A program made the translations under genes and the position numbers. This document shows, in pieces, positions 15,944 through 36,576 of a stretch of DNA of 64,000 bases; the stretch's first letter is position 1, and the number at the start of each line of letters is the position of its first letter. The stretch is from Rhizomicrobium sp. (GTDB taxonomy: Bacteria > Pseudomonadota > Alphaproteobacteria > Micropepsales > Micropepsaceae). The stretch is from NCBI GenBank assembly GCA_037200985.1, contig JBBCGJ010000001.1, forward strand, positions 1,774,756 to 1,838,755. Reading direction: 5' to 3'. Below the pieces are notes generated by a model that worked only from the letters and a program-made list of their open reading frames with translations, was not told the origin of the DNA and searched no databases.

Positions 15944-16942
15944 CTAGATCAGCCCCGTCATCGGGCTCGACGGATCGCCGTAGTTCTTCTTCGGCATGCG
16001 CCCGGCGAGCCAGGCGAGGCGGCCGGCTTCGACCGCGAGCTTCATCGCCGCCGCCATCTTCACCGGATCCTTCGCGTGCGCGATGCCGGTGTTCGAGATC
16101 ACCGCGTCGCAGCCGAGCTCCATCGCCACCGCCGCGTCCGAGGCCGTGCCGATGCCGGCGTCCACGATCACGGGGACTTTCGCGTCCTCGATGATGAGGC
16201 GGATGTTCACCGTGGACTGAATGCCCATGCCCGAGCCGATCGGCGAGGCGAGCGGCATGATCGCCACCGCGCCCAGGTCTTCCAGCCGCTTGGCCATCAG
16301 AGGATCGTCGCTGCAATAGACCATCACCTTGAAGCCGTCCTTGGTCAGCATCTCGGTGGCGCGCAGCGTTTCGAGCATGTCGGGATAGAGCAGCTTCTTC
16401 TCGCCCAGGACTTCGAGCTTCACGAGGTCCCAGCCGCCGGCCTCGCGCGCCAGGCGCAGGGTGCGCACCGCGTCCTCGCCGGTGAAGCAGCCGGCGGTGT
16501 TGGGCAGATAGGTGACTTTCTTCGGGTCGATGAAGTCGACCAGCTTGGGCTGGCTGGGATCGGTGAGGTTCACGCGGCGCACCGCGACGGTCACGATCTC
16601 GGCGCCGCTGGCTTCCAGCGCGCGGGCATTGTCGGCGTAAGTCCTGTACTTGCCGGTGCCGACGATGAGGCGGGACTTGTAAGTCTTGCCGGCGAGGACG
16701 AAGGGCTTGTCCTCCACCGGCGGGGTGACCGGCGCGTTGCCGCCGCCGATGAAATGCACGATCTCGTATTTGTCGCCGTCCTCGACCAGCACCGCGTCAT
16801 AGGTCGAGCGCGGCACGATCTCCAGATTGCGTTCGACCGCGATCTTCCTGGGGTCCAGCCCGAGAACGGCCAGCAGGCCGTGCACGCTGAGGCTCGGCGG
16901 GACACGGCAAGGTTCGCCGTTGACGATGACGTTCAGGCTCAT
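15944..16942 (-). CDS. thiG: Fused sulfur carrier ThiS - thiazole synthase ThiG
   Basis: Makes the thiazole phosphate moiety of thiamine. Residues 1 to about 69 are a ubiquitin-fold ThiS domain ([14 protein letters not shown] to [10 protein letters not shown]). From about residue 80 the ThiG TIM barrel follows ([19 protein letters not shown], then the Lys-containing [20 protein letters not shown] and [14 protein letters not shown]). ThiS normally needs a free C-terminal Gly-Gly to carry sulfur as a thiocarboxylate. Here the glycines (GGGNAP) sit in the linker, so either processing or another route is needed. This fused form is known from other bacteria. The gene stands alone behind a TPP riboswitch; no other thi gene is in the window. 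Confidence 0.95.
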
Positions 16943-16950
16943 GGTTCTCC

Positions 16951-17036
16951 TCTCCCTACGCCGGTACGAGCCGGATCAGGTTCAAAGGGACTGGGCGGGA
17001 TGCCCATCTCAGCCGCGAACGGCGCCCCTGGGACTG
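16951..17036 (-). promoter_or_regulatory. TPP riboswitch (THI element)
   Basis: On the minus strand the leader of the ThiSG gene contains the conserved TPP aptamer elements in order: AGGGGCGCC, then GCTGAGAT, then CCCTTTGAACCTGATCCGG, then ACCGGCGTAGGGA. The closing P1 helix pairs TCCC near 17034 with GGGA near 16953. The aptamer ends about 10 bases before the ATG, with GGAGAGGAGAA between them, so TPP binding probably sequesters the ribosome binding site and blocks translation initiation when thiamine is plentiful. Confidence 0.95.
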
Positions 17037-17138
17037 TCGCTCAACCATAGCCCCGGCCGCGGCGGCGATAAACCCCGTGTTTGCGGGACGCGCGCATGCG
17101 ACTATAAGGGGCGAATCCGCCTCCTTTCCGGAGTTCCC

Positions 17139-29300: not shown

Positions 29301-30132
29301 CGGCGGGCACAAGGTTTACTTGCGCACCGGCGAGTACGAGGACGGCCGCATCGGCGAGATCTTCATCGACATGCACAAGGACGGGGCTGCGTTCCGCAGC
29401 CTGATGGACGCCTTCGCCATCGCGATCTCGATGGGCCTGCAATACGGCGTGCCGCTGGACGAGTTCGTCGACGCATTCACCTTCACGCGCTTCGAGCCGG
29501 CCGGCATGGTGATCGGCAACGATTCGATCAAGAACGCCACCTCGATCCTGGACTACATCTTCCGCGAGCTGGCGGTCTCCTATCTCGGCCGCAACGACCT
29601 CGCCCATGTCCAGCCGGAGGGCGACGAGGATGTCGGCGTCGGCACGGACGAAGGCAGCGACGGCGCGACGGAAGTTCGCCGCGTGGTCTCGCCGGGCTTC
29701 GTGCGCGGCCGCATCCCGCGCACCATCGCGGTCGTCCGCGGCGGCGCGGCCCGCAAGCTCGATCCCAATGCCGAGCACGCGCATCTGCATTCGCATCACA
29801 CCCATCAGGTGGAAGAGGTCGAGGAATTCCTCACCGCCGACGATGTCGAAGTCAGCGATGCCCTGTCGGAGATCCGCGCCAGCGTGCTGGCGGAGGCTTC
29901 CAACCCGGTCGGCGATCTGGTCGATGCGCTGGGCACCAAGCTGCGCGAACGTGCCGACAGCGCGGCGGGCAAGGCCGGCAAGGCGCGCGAGCTCCAGGCC
30001 AAGCGCGCGGCGGAAGCGCGGATGAAGGGCTATGAGGGCGACGCCTGCGGCGGCTGCGGGAATTTTACTTTGGTAAGAAACGGCACCTGCATGAAGTGCA
30101 ACACCTGCGGCTCGACGAGCGGCTGCAGCTGA
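26335..30132 (+). CDS. nrdJ: Adenosylcobalamin-dependent (class II) ribonucleotide reductase
   Basis: Reduces ribonucleotides to deoxyribonucleotides without needing oxygen, using AdoCbl as radical source (1265 aa). Hallmarks are [74 protein letters not shown] and [12 protein letters not shown]. The C-terminal redox-active cysteines lie in [10 protein letters not shown] and [12 protein letters not shown] charged coiled-coil-like segment ([15 protein letters not shown]) and a His-rich linker ([10 protein letters not shown]) lie in the C-terminal third. ATG 26335 or 26341 are both possible starts. A Gly/Ser-rich insertion at about residues 494-510 (27814-27864) has codons unlike its surroundings. 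No class I reductase is in the window. Confidence 0.95.
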
Positions 30133-30153
30133 AGAGACACCTCGCGATGGGTG

Positions 30154-30194
30154 GGAAGGGGTGGGTGGCTCGCGCTCCCGCCCCTTCCGCTTTT
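30154..30194 (+). terminator. Hairpin with short T-run after nrdJ
   Basis: GGAAGGGG (30154-30161) pairs with CCCCTTCC (30181-30188), followed by GC and TTTT (30191-30194). The stem is eight base pairs with a 19-base loop that can fold further. It starts 22 bases after the nrdJ stop. The T-run is short, so termination may be partial and allow readthrough into the 61-aa gene that follows. Confidence 0.5.
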
Positions 30195-30246
30195 GGGGGG
30201 GAACGCGACTCAGGACGACAACGTTGAAGCGCGACGGAGAATTGAA

Positions 30247-30432
30247 ATGGCGAAGCAGCTTGTCGAAGTGATCGATCGCAAGGGGCATGTCCTCGACCGC
30301 TATATGGTCGAGCTCGACGATGCGGATTGTCACGATGCGGAGTACGAGGAATTCGCGCTGATCCTTGCCGAGAAATCGGGCCGCATCGAAGCGGCGGAGC
30401 ATGTCCGTCTGCGGGCGCGCTGCGTGAAATAA
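30247..30432 (+). CDS. Small acidic protein of unknown function downstream of nrdJ
   Basis: A 61-aa frame starting MAKQLVEVIDRKGHVLDRYMVE and ending EHVRLRARCVK. The composition is that of a normal soluble protein: acidic in the middle (ELDDADCHDAEYEEF), basic at the end, no signal peptide and no membrane segment. A purine-rich GACGGAGAATTGAA stretch precedes the ATG and includes a GGAG about eight bases upstream. Codon choice follows that of the neighbours. I do not recognise a family. Its position directly behind nrdJ suggests co-expression, but the hairpin at 30154-30194 separates them. A 9-bp hairpin follows immediately after its stop (30434-30457). Confidence 0.6.
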   Translation: MAKQLVEVIDRKGHVLDRYMVELDDADCHDAEYEEFALILAEKSGRIEAAEHVRLRARCVK

Positions 30433-30433
30433 A

Positions 30434-30910
30434 GCTGCGTGCTTTCGCGCGCGCAGCAAGAACGCGCGGATGATTCGTTTCTGTGGACAAGTGATTCGCG
30501 GCGCTCGACTCAAAAACAAATCCGTCGCAATCTTTCCTCGCGCCTGGGGCACCCGCGCACACGGGAAAAGCCCAAGGCACCTGCAAAGGTGACCGGCGCA
30601 CACCTTGCACCGGCCGAAGAGGGCGCCAGCCCGCGACGGACCGGAGTGCGGCAAGGGCCACCGAAAGCGTTCTAGAGCGCTGACGTGGACCGGGAATCCA
30701 GGGAACGGCGGGGAAACCGTTCGAACTGGGCGCGACGCGCGGAACCTAAGGCCGTGCAAGCGTGACGTGGAAGGCCCAACGAAAGGCGGGACGGAAGCGT
30801 CGAAAAAGATCGCACAGGATCTGTGACGAACCGCACTGCGAAGCGCGGGAAACGAGCAGGCAAACCAGTGTGCTGACCGTGGACGGGGGCCATCGCGAGG
30901 GGCCTCCGTT
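30434..30910 (+). ncRNA. Candidate structured RNA region, family not recognised
   Basis: The 626-bp space between the 61-aa gene and the pentapeptide gene has no frame with coding character, and its plus strand is purine-rich with many GAAA-type loops. Successive hairpins are: 30434-30442/30449-30457 (9 bp with one G-U); CACCT-GCAA-AGGTG at 30578-30591 (GNRA loop); CCAC/GTGG 30658-30688 enclosing AGCG/CGCT; CCAG/CTGG 30698-30729 enclosing GAACGG/CCGTTC; GGCC/GGCC 30750-30776; GACG-GAAG-CGTC 30790-30801; CACAG-GAT-CTGTG 30813-30825; and ACGG-GGCC/GGCC-CCGT 30883-30909. It does not show the conserved cores of RNase P RNA, tmRNA, SRP RNA or 6S RNA. It could be an independent RNA or a long leader of the next gene. 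Confidence 0.35.
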
Positions 30911-31058
30911 TGCGTTTGTGGGGTTTCAGTCGCGTCGCGGTGTCCGTGCCTCCCCATCGTCCCGCCAGATTCGCAGCCGGGCGCCCCATGGTGGACATGG
31001 GATCCCGGCACGGTGCTTGCGACGCAAGGGGCAGCCGTTTCACTTTGGGACAAGCCCC

Positions 31059-31517
31059 GTGTCCAGACTGACCGCTTTCGCCTTTGCCCTCCTGATGACC
31101 CTGGGATCGCCCGCTTTCGCAGGCCCGGCCTATGATGCCGCCGCCGTCGCGCGCATCCATGCCGCCATCGTCGACTGTCCCGGCTGCAATCTTGCCGGCG
31201 CCGACCTCACCAATACCTGCGTCAAGGCGCACGACCTGACCGGCGCGAATTTCGACGGCGCCACCGCCGTCCTGATGTGCATGTCGTATGCGAATTTCTC
31301 GAACGCCACCTTCCGCGGCACCGACCTGTCGGGCGCGAACCTGGCGCATGCCAGGCTCGACGGCGCCGACCTGAGCGGCGCGGTCCTGGACATCACCTCG
31401 ATCAAGGGCACGGACCTGACGCGCACGCGCGGCCTGACCCAGAAGCAGCTCGACCAGGCCTGCGGCGACGCCGATACGCGCGTGCCGGCGGGCCTGAAGG
31501 TGCATCTCTGCACCTGA
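31059..31517 (+). CDS. Secreted pentapeptide-repeat protein
   Basis: A 152-aa protein with a signal peptide (MSRLTAFAFALLMTLGSPAFA, taking the start codon as Met). The mature part begins with a short helix containing CPGC and then carries pentapeptide repeats of the A(D/N)LxX type: NLAGADLTNTCVKAHDLTGANF, ANFSNATFRGTDLSGANLAHARLDGADLSGAVL and GTDLTRTRGL. These build a right-handed quadrilateral beta-helix. Four or more Cys residues suggest disulfides. The start is GTG 31059 with GGGA eight bases upstream; the longer open frame lacks coding character. The function is unknown. A strong terminator follows. Confidence 0.85.
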   Translation: MSRLTAFAFALLMTLGSPAFAGPAYDAAAVARIHAAIVDCPGCNLAGADLTNTCVKAHDLTGANFDGATAVLMCMSYANFSNATFRGTDLSGANLAHARLDGADLSGAVLDITSIKGTDLTRTRGLTQKQLDQACGDADTRVPAGLKVHLCT

Positions 31518-31547
31518 CCGCTTTCGTCTCCTCCTTGGGACACCTCG

Positions 31548-31584
31548 ACCCCGTCCGCGGATGTACCGGACGGGGTTCTTTTTT
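31548..31584 (+). terminator. Intrinsic terminator after the pentapeptide-repeat gene
   Basis: ACCCCGTCCG (31548-31557) pairs perfectly with CGGACGGGGT (31567-31576) around a nine-base loop and is followed by a T-rich run (TTCTTTTTT, 31576-31584). It ends transcription of the pentapeptide gene just before the convergent stop of gcvPB at 31598. Confidence 0.9.
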
Positions 31585-31597
31585 GCGCGGCGCGCGA

Positions 31598-33184
31598 CTA
31601 CTCCGCCGCCTGCGGCAGCTCCCGCTTCTTCCAGCGCAGCACCGGCTTGCGGGCGGCGGCGGTTTCGTCGAGGCGCCGGCGGGGAGCCAGGCGCGGGGCG
31701 CCGGCGAAGCGCTCGGTCTTCTTCGCCTTGGCCTCCAGCGCGAGTTCGCGCAGAACGTGGACGAAGCGGTCGAGGGATTCCTTGGACTCCGATTCCGTCG
31801 GCTCGATCAGCATCGCGCCGTGGACGACCAGCGGGAAATACATCGTCATCGGGTGGTAGCCCTCGTCGATCATCGCCTTGGCGAAATCGAGCGTGGTGAC
31901 GCCGGTGCCGGCGAGGAAGCTGTCGTCGAACAGCGCCTCGTGCATGCAGGGGCCGTCGCCGAAGGGCGCGCTCATCACGTCCTTCAGGGAGGCGAGGATG
32001 TAGTTGGCGGAGAGCACGGCGTCTTCCGACGCCTGGCGCACACCGTCGCGGCCGTGGCTGAGCATGTAAGCGAGCGCGCGGACGAACATGCCCATCTGGC
32101 CGTGGAAGGCGCTCATGCGGCCGAAGGGCCGGGCGCCTTCGGGAAGGTCGTCGCGATCCTCGATCAGGCGGAAGCCCCTTTCGTCGTGGACGAGCAGCGG
32201 CAGCGGCGCGAAGGGCGCCAGCGCGGCGGAGAGCACCACCGGCCCTGCCCCCGGACCGCCGCCGCCATGCGGCGTCGAGAAGGTCTTGTGCAGGTTGATG
32301 TGCATGGCGTCGACGCCGAGATCGCCGGGCCTGACGCGGCCGGCGATGGCGTTGAAATTCGCGCCGTCGCAATAGAAATAGGCGCCGGCCTTGTGGGTGG
32401 CGTCGGCCATGTGGCGGATGTCGCGCTCGAACAGCCCGCAGGTGTTGGGATTGGTGAGCATGATGGCGGCGACGTCGGGGCCGAGCTTGCCTTCGAGCTC
32501 GACCATGTCGACGCGGCCGTCCGCGGTGCCCTTGACCTCGTCGATGGCGAAGCCGGCGAAGGCGGCGGTGGCGGGATTGGTGCCGTGGGCGGATTCAGGG
32601 ACCAGGATGCGCCGCCGCGTCTCGCCGCGCGCGGCGATGGCGGCGCGGATCGCGAGCAGGCCGCAGAGCTCTCCATGGGCACCGGCCTTCGGGCTCATTG
32701 CCACCGCCGGCATGCCGGTCAGCGTGGTGAGCCAAGTCATCAATTCGGAGATCAGCGCCAGCGCGCCCTGCGTCGCCGATTGCGGGCTCAAGGGATGCAG
32801 GTCGCCGAAGCCGGGCAGGCGCGCCATCTTCTCGTTGAGACGCGGATTGTGCTTCATCGTGCAGGAGCCGAGCGGATAGAGGCCGGCATCGATGGCGTAG
32901 TTCTGGCGGCTGAGCCGCACATAGTGGCGGACGACTTCCGGCTCCGAGAGGCCGGGAAGGCCGATGGGGCCGCGGCGGCGCTGGCCGCCGAGACGGGCGT
33001 CGGAGAGCTGGACATCGGGGAGATCGACGCCAGTCATGCCGTCGCGGCCGATCTCGAAGATCAGCGGCTCTTCATGATCGAGTCCGCGGTCGCCGGAGAT
33101 GGTCGGCAATTCGTTGGCCTCGATGGTGCCTGGCGCGACCATCTTATCAATCGAAGACGGGCGGCCCTGGTTGTTCATGGTCAT
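31598..33184 (-). CDS. gcvPB: Glycine dehydrogenase (decarboxylating), subunit 2
   Basis: PLP-bearing half of the two-subunit P-protein of the glycine cleavage system. It has 528 aa, with the PLP Lys in INLHKTFSTPHGGGGPG, preceded by the family segments LGSCTMKHNPRLNE, ESAHGTNPATAAFAGF, LTNPNTCGLFE and FYCDGANFNAI. The C-terminal extension is Arg/Lys-rich. ATG 33184 overlaps the gcvPA stop (ATGA); a second ATG lies six bases in. It is the last gene of gcvT-gcvH-gcvPA-gcvPB. Confidence 0.95.
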   Translation of the reverse strand: MTMNNQGRPSSIDKMVAPGTIEANELPTISGDRGLDHEEPLIFEIGRDGMTGVDLPDVQLSDARLGGQRRRGPIGLPGLSEPEVVRHYVRLSRQNYAIDAGLYPLGSCTMKHNPRLNEKMARLPGFGDLHPLSPQSATQGALALISELMTWLTTLTGMPAVAMSPKAGAHGELCGLLAIRAAIAARGETRRRILVPESAHGTNPATAAFAGFAIDEVKGTADGRVDMVELEGKLGPDVAAIMLTNPNTCGLFERDIRHMADATHKAGAYFYCDGANFNAIAGRVRPGDLGVDAMHINLHKTFSTPHGGGGPGAGPVVLSAALAPFAPLPLLVHDERGFRLIEDRDDLPEGARPFGRMSAFHGQMGMFVRALAYMLSHGRDGVRQASEDAVLSANYILASLKDVMSAPFGDGPCMHEALFDDSFLAGTGVTTLDFAKAMIDEGYHPMTMYFPLVVHGAMLIEPTESESKESLDRFVHVLRELALEAKAKKTERFAGAPRLAPRRRLDETAAARKPVLRWKKRELPQAAE

Positions 33185-36229: not shown

Positions 36230-36452
36230 CCCTCTGTCATTGGGACCTGAGAGATTTCCCCGCAGGTCTTCCGTGAAGACCGGCGGATTACCCCTTCGGT
36301 GAGGACGCCGAGATGCGGCGCCCTGCTTTCCAGAAGTTCATCACCTGTCGCGGTCCTTTTGCCTGAGAGTTTCCGGGGCGGTTGCTCCTTCGGCCTTCGC
36401 CTTCGGCTACGGCCGACAGGTCGGCTTTGCACGAAGTCAAACGTCTCCCGCG
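36230..36452 (-). promoter_or_regulatory. Tandem glycine riboswitch
   Basis: On the minus strand the gcvT leader contains two glycine aptamers. The first starts at GGGAGACG (36449 downwards) and holds CCGAAGGAGCAA and GGAAACTCTCAGGCAAAAGG followed by ACCG. The second holds GCCGAAGGGGTAA and GGAAATCTCTCAGGTCCC, ending ACAGAGGGGCG near 36230. The conserved GAAGG and CTCAGG cores occur twice in the right order. Glycine binding is expected to switch on the gcv operon. About 55 bases separate the second aptamer from the gcvT start. The rest of the 404-bp gap to argS shows nothing else. Confidence 0.96.
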
Positions 36453-36576
36453 AGGGATCGATTGTATGGCCGAAACGGCGCGCCATCCGGCGGGCTGTCT
36501 CGTTGCAGAGCATCATAGGGGACACGCGCGCCAAGTCAACGAAAGGCGCACCGATACGCGTCAAAAAGCGAAACGC

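Follow-up and report, generated by a model that had tools for sequence, protein, structure and literature searches.

The locus and its neighborhood

The stretch at 30434-30910 of the window (the whole 64-kb piece of DNA that was analyzed) is bounded by a 61-aa gene, with its stop at 30432, and by a pentapeptide gene that starts at about 31059. The original prediction put this stretch forward as a candidate new structured RNA, and the present analysis supports it: a fold, conservation in relatives, and compensatory changes were all found. The structured stretch is real, but the RNA itself runs from about 30540 to 30917, and 30472-30533 looks like a promoter region. We consider it very likely that 30542-30917 on the + strand is a structured non-coding RNA of about 380 nt. 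Comparative sequence analysis is the basis for its fold, strand, conservation, single origin, and non-coding status, and for its distinctness from three housekeeping RNAs. The features are collected in Table 1.

Table 1. Features of the RNA locus and other elements located in the window.
Feature	Position	Strand	Remarks
TPP riboswitch	16936..17039	-	above Rfam threshold, ordinary
61-aa gene	30250..30432	+	adjoins nrdJ in carriers and also in several genomes that lack the RNA; unmatched in Pfam and NCBIfam
Conserved upstream block	30472..30511	+	GATTC 30472-30476, TGTGGACAA 30482-30490, GATTC 30493-30497, GACTC 30507-30511
Putative core promoter	30505..30533	+	TCGACT (-35-like), 17-base spacer, CAATCT (-10-like); weak resemblance, read by eye
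Structured non-coding RNA, about 380 nt	30540..30917	+	ends placed from helix 1 (5′) and from the terminator-like hairpin (3′)
Helices 1 and 2	30542..30578	+	5′ hairpin, invariant loop CGCACA 30556-30561; pair counts; one pair C-G to U-A (both sides) in helix 2, none in helix 1
Helix 3	30579..30590	+	loop GCAA in the window; three pairs never vary
Helices 4 and 5	30594..30875	+	long-range, 30594-30608 with 30856-30875, closing a multibranched core; mostly invariant; helix 5 with one both-side change, 90.0% of cells paired
Helices 6 and 7	30610..30644	+	one both-side change in helix 6
Helix 8	30646..30815	+	inner long-range, GTGCG 30646-30650 with CGCAC 30811-30815; one both-side change, G-C to U-G
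Helices 9 and 10	30656..30691	+	CUAG loop 30672-30675 within UCUAGA tips helix 10; both-side changes, three in helix 10 and one in helix 9
Helices 11 and 12	30698..30729	+	nested CCAG/CTGG and GAACGG/CCGTTC stems; pair counts
Helices 13, 14, 15, and 17	30730..30801	+	one both-side change each in 13, 15, and 17; none in 14
Helix 18	30831..30848	+	variable hairpin; 92.9% of cells paired, one both-side change
Helix 19	30878..30921	+	terminator-like 3′ hairpin, 16 pairs (30878-30914), then TTTGTGG; pair counts; one pair varies on one side, the others are invariant
Glycine riboswitch	36341..36460	-	above Rfam threshold, ordinary

A first DNA search with the stretch matched 3/61 genomes, one of them that of the window itself. 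When a more diverged copy served as the query, strong matches were found in 5/69 genomes of the genus (E ≤3.4e-108; next best 0.0026), which supplies the conservation in relatives that had been named as a check. The carriers are G000 (the window), G028, G022, G068, and G084. A covariance model of the 5′ half (188 positions) recovered the same five of the 69 genomes with one match each, scoring 38 candidates per genome under stricter filters. Against 385 genomes drawn from the class, the model gave two matches, both known carriers, in a search that scored at most six candidates per genome and could miss diverged relatives. No match to the RNA was found in plasmids and phages, and a pattern search for the 3′ hairpin found none. 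An exact 19-mer occurred in three stretches of genome contigs: the G068 locus, a G022 contig with the same RNA, and a Myxococcales sequence. The Myxococcales stretch gave no covariance-model match, nor did two viral contigs with the 19-mer. The unfiltered model, run over the 25 non-carriers among 30 nrdJ loci (62 genomes had an nrdJ match), returned 24 weak matches up to E 5. The best of them (13.2 bits, E 0.039), located in protein-gene-like sequence and opposite in strand to nrdJ, was taken as chance. The RNA very probably represents a new family that, in the searched genomes, is confined to one species group within one alphaproteobacterial genus.

The RNA lies downstream of nrdJ in all five carriers. 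The 61-aa gene is present in four of them and was not seen in G022; apart from it, one extra gene precedes the RNA in G084 (a KTSC-domain gene) and one in G068. The next gene after the RNA is the pentapeptide gene (+) in G000 and a DUF1203 gene (-) in both G022 and G028. In G084 it is a (-) gene with no Pfam match, to which the (-) gene in G068 is 30% similar. Two genomes that lack the RNA, G013 and G034, have the 61-aa gene, then DUF1203 at a distance of about 126 and 13 bases, respectively, followed by the pentapeptide gene. An nrdJ tree (midpoint root) was built from 29 of 30 loci; the short fragment of G069 was left out. The carriers form one group in this tree with support of 100/99. One origin followed by vertical descent would therefore be the simplest history, with loss elsewhere as another possibility. 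The carriers differ by indels of 1, 2, 3, and 24 bases, and none separates G028 from G000.

Fold and covariation

The trimmed alignment of the five sequences was folded with RNAalifold and gave a multibranched consensus. A doubtful RNAalifold pairing between the 5′-most bases and the tail was excluded before the pairs were counted, and columns outside the RNA were excluded from the per-carrier folding, the column-shuffle, and the strand comparisons. Standard pairs make up 97.9% of 532 base-pair cells (107 pairs in five sequences) and 14 of the 107 pairs changed on both sides with pairing kept, counts that lean towards the fold, given that these five sequences also served to derive it and that two of them (G000 and G028) are about 95% identical. 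None of 500 letter shuffles reached any of five pairing and covariation measures. When the partners were slid by 1-3 columns, pairing was found in only 25-40% of cells. The column-shuffle control was folded from scratch and is free of the bias that comes from deriving the structure from the same sequences. The consensus energy was -146.0 against a mean of -102.8 (sd 5.7, best -113.0) for 40 refolded column-shuffled alignments, and the 14 pairs changed on both sides compare with a mean of 4.25 and a maximum of 11 in the same control.

The consensus contains 18 helices with at least two pairs, not the roughly eight that were originally listed; those helices are present and go beyond chance. Eleven of the 18 have a both-side change (helices 2, 5, 6, 8, 9, 10, 12, 13, 15, 17, and 18), and the single pair that we term helix 16 also changed on both sides. 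Helices 1, 3, 4, 7, 11, 14, and 19 have zero both-side changes, and their support comes mainly from energy. The compensatory changes that had been proposed as a check are thus found, by RNAalifold and pair counts rather than R-scape.

Individual stems of the original prediction fared differently. The nested CCAG/CTGG stem around GAACGG/CCGTTC corresponds to helices 11 and 12. Helix 12 shows a compensatory change, with C-G in three carriers and A-U in two; helix 11 is invariant. The GCAA tetraloop of helix 3 is present in the window and is GAAA in the four other carriers, but the closing pair expected for a GNRA loop (U-A in G000 and G028) is C/A, U/U, or U/C in the other three and is thus lost in 3/5 carriers. 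The GAAG stem exists as helix 18, but it is among the less well kept. A 24-nt insertion near 30791 is found in G022 and G068. It is absent from G084, though the nrdJ tree weakly pairs G022 with G084. CGCACA occurs three times in the RNA (30556, 30597, and 30811), and one of the copies is the invariant hairpin loop. Alternative pairings are possible, since GTGCG and GTGTGC each have several CGCACA copies as potential partners.

The stem of helix 10 takes the forms GCGTT/AGCGC, GCGTT/AACGC, GGCTT/AAGCC, GGGTT/AACCC, and GGGAT/ATCCC, all around CTAG. TCTAGA is found once in the 64 kb, at the helix 10 loop, and CTAG is found seven times in the 64 kb, against 193 expected from base composition. An invariant self-complementary CUAG loop on a covarying stem suggests a kissing contact like those of the RNA-only complexes in PMC12286853, and we regard it as a hint. 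The TAG in this loop is also the stop of a frame that is open in all five carriers and has no codon signature (discussed below), which counts against reading the invariant CUAG purely as a loop.

Strand preference

Covariation alone cannot fix the strand, because the consensus of the - strand also has 10 both-side changes, as expected from mirrored helices. Folding energy favors the + strand. In the window, the + strand folds below its dinucleotide shuffles (z -2.74, 0/100 as low), and the - strand does so less clearly (z -1.18, 11/100 as low). Across the five carriers, z ranges from -2.1 to -4.3 on the + strand, with at most 1/60 shuffles as low, and from -0.3 to -1.8 on the - strand; the + value is the lower one in 5/5. 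The consensus energy is -146.0 for the + strand vs. -117.1 for the - strand. On the + fold, G-U cells number 64 and C-A cells two. This count points to the + strand as well, but it carries a bias, as the + strand was the one used to predict the fold. We rejected the - strand as the RNA strand on folding, where it does worse in the window and in all five carriers.

Ends and upstream region

Both ends of the RNA are placed from sequence features. The 3′ edge is sharp: identity among the five carriers falls from 1.00 over 30897-30916 to 0.51 immediately downstream. The helix 19 hairpin has an energy of -25.4 kcal/mol, reached by 1/200 shuffles, and the U tail that follows it is short and interrupted. 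A scan for sigma-70 consensus promoters and terminators called neither end of the RNA. The one site of the terminator scan is on the - strand (30825-30813), and shuffles average 1.2.

All four elements of the upstream block align in 5/5 carriers. The reverse complement of TGTGGACAA is TTGTCCACA, and the variant of this box in G084 is TGTGGAAAA. On the other strand, we take TGTGGACAA and TGTGGAAAA to resemble DnaA boxes. The pattern TGTGGA[ACT]AA occurs once in the 64-kb window and zero times on the other strand. GANTC is more common (96 in 64 kb), and a second group of three within 45 bp lies at 31776 in the window, so that such a cluster is not unique by itself. The composite of box and GATTC gave one match in the 4.64-Mb genome and zero in a reversed control.

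CtrA boxes consist of TTAA half-sites, and no TTAA was found in 30440-30545. GcrA is encoded in 5/5 carriers by a search whose control matched Caulobacter but also Sulfolobus. A RAMA-domain protein, presumably the CcrM-type enzyme, is encoded in 5/5 carriers as well; the G000 copy is 361 aa long and has a DPPY motif. All five carriers combine the conserved GANTC sites with an encoded GcrA and CcrM-type enzyme. GcrA reportedly favors promoters that carry CcrM methylation sites (PMC3667746). The GANTC sites upstream of the RNA, together with GcrA and the CcrM-type enzyme in 5/5 carriers, resemble GcrA/CcrM-controlled promoters at the level of sequence. An upstream block with a putative DnaA-box-like site and three putative CcrM sites suggests cell-cycle-timed transcription.

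Comparison with known RNAs

At gathering score, Rfam gave no match in the RNA stretch and only the TPP and glycine riboswitches in the 64-kb window. At E ≤10 over 30100-31100 there were six matches, all far below threshold, two of them touching the RNA. One of these, to a CRISPR repeat on the - strand, scored 14.8 bits against a gathering score of 42. The Rfam search proposed with the original prediction thus yields sub-threshold matches only. The sRNA BjrC68 (RF02353) resembles the RNA in a weak end-to-end match to its 3′ 74 nt, at 17.3 bits in the window and 17.6 in G068. The gathering score of this family is 39, eight model positions (four pairs) are left unpaired, and the match conflicts with long-range helices 4 and 5; BjrC68 was rejected. 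A separate suhB/mmgR-like sub-threshold match (32.2 bits, gathering 41) lies directly after the pentapeptide gene of G028 (locus L008, 3152-3228) and is a possible sRNA. The equivalent region of the window, at about 31517-31590 (+), has CTCCTCC together with a T run and a hairpin of terminator type.

The Rfam library presumably contains the OLE, ROOL, and GOLLD families. None of the three was found at gathering score in the window, nor among the six matches at E ≤10 over 30100-31100. These are large multibranched RNAs that form homo-oligomers via kissing loops and A-minor contacts (PMC12286853). The RNA described here is similar in being a putative multibranched RNA gene with a covarying stem that is tipped by a self-complementary loop of constant sequence. 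It differs in being shorter (about 380 nt), without an Rfam match, chromosomal beside nrdJ, and inherited within one species group. For self-association of the present RNA, the CUAG loop is a sequence hint.

CcnA is a cell-cycle non-coding RNA of Caulobacter that is located at the replication origin and has a promoter with a CtrA box (PMC8959179). Both are alphaproteobacterial non-coding RNAs linked to cell-cycle regulator sites upstream, which are candidate sites in the present case. They differ in that the upstream region of the present RNA has no TTAA but a DnaA-box-like site and three GANTC. Among the titles and abstract openings found in a collection of open-licence papers, none describes this RNA or a similar one at this place.

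Interpretation and alternatives

The original prediction allowed for either an RNA gene or a long leader. The terminator-like 3′ hairpin and the different, opposite-strand next gene in the four other carriers favor an RNA gene, and the structured RNA at 30540-30917 probably forms a gene of its own. The combined statement, of an independently transcribed structured RNA gene that represents a new family and comes with a working model of function, is likely too. Our confidence in it was lowered slightly because the G-U evidence for the strand is biased and because an open frame is common to the five carriers. Most of this was offset because the column-shuffle control supports the fold.

We infer the transcription, timing, dimerization, and function of the RNA. 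A promoter just upstream, with its DnaA-box-like and three CcrM-type sites, would drive the RNA at a set point of the replication cycle, and the terminator-like hairpin would end the transcript. Long-range helices 4 and 5 would close a compact, multibranched fold, and the RNA would act in trans as a folded molecule. Most likely it would serve as a ribonucleoprotein core or as a regulator that displays its conserved loops, and a dimer could form through the CUAG loop. Taken jointly, the functional steps are tentative. A cell-cycle-timed RNA that acts in trans as a folded body is nevertheless the most likely working model, in large part by inference.

The RNA could instead be an ordinary base-pairing sRNA, processed or independent, whose loops pair with mRNAs. 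The terminator-like 3′ end and the conserved loops would fit such an sRNA, and alphaproteobacterial cell-cycle non-coding RNAs such as CcnA exist (PMC8959179). Against this, a molecule of about 380 nt with long-range closing helices has few single-stranded stretches, and its invariant unpaired runs of at least three bases are each only 3 to 6 bases long. We see a base-pairing sRNA as possible, if not especially probable.

The other explanations were considered and rejected. A structured 5′ leader of the downstream pentapeptide gene, riboswitch-like or protein-binding, would suit the window, where that gene lies on the same strand and starts at about 31059, some 140 bases past the RNA. However, each of the four other carriers has another gene mapped next, on the opposite strand (the G068 match is only 30% identical), and all five copies of the RNA share one terminal hairpin, at which conservation stops. 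A leader is thus unlikely. The locus could also act as DNA rather than RNA, as an origin-like or replication-control element, which would account for a DnaA-box-like site and three GANTC in 40 bp. This is quite unlikely: a DNA site needs no 380 bp of covarying stems, some of them long-range, that fold better on one strand, and there is no clear GC-skew switch at the stretch in the 64 kb examined.

A small protein gene was weighed in the frame of the ORF at 30439-30675. The + strand of the stretch contains ORFs of 40 to 78 aa, and this frame has neither a gap nor an internal stop over its last 35 codons (30571-30675) in all five carriers, ending at the TAG in TCTAGA. Variable sites at codon positions 1/2/3 number 8, 14, and 7, so that position 3 varies least, and pN is at least as high as pS in 8/10 carrier pairs; pS exceeds pN in the remaining 2/10, as a coding frame would have it. 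With this pattern, there is no sign of coding in the frame. G084 also has a 1-base insertion upstream in the frame, and the fold reaches far beyond the ORF. The frames of the ORFs at 30605-30826 (29/27/26) and 30762-30917 (16/19/14) show no coding signature either, and no excess of third-position changes was found in the three frames tested. The earlier statement that the stretch has no coding character was right in substance, with the qualification that ORFs exist, one of them open in 5/5 carriers, and a small protein gene here is very improbable.

The weakest alternative is a diverged RNase P RNA, tmRNA, or 6S RNA, suggested by a length near that of RNase P RNA and by purine-rich loops; its probability is negligible, since no Rfam match reaches threshold in the stretch and all three RNAs lie elsewhere above cut-offs in 9/9 genomes (five carriers and four non-carriers). 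The genome copies are at C1:2413349-2413718 for RNase P RNA (RF00010), C1:2544448-2544768 for alpha tmRNA (RF01849), and C1:2615437-2615594 for 6S RNA (RF00013), and none of these families has a match in the stretch.

An independently transcribed RNA gene is thus the preferred reading. Known large structured bacterial RNAs are few, and this one appears compact with a covarying fold. The large structured bacterial RNAs studied have included central machines and unusual assemblies. Near-complete genomes of carriers and non-carriers from one genus are available for comparison, and the upstream region makes a testable statement on when the RNA is made. A more speculative and rather improbable extension is a recent clade-specific large RNA that would be clocked by replication, through the DnaA site and CcrM methylation, and that would form a dimer or a higher RNA-only complex via CUAG. 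If true, such a clocked, CUAG-assembled RNA would couple an RNA machine to the cell cycle beside a ribonucleotide reductase gene.
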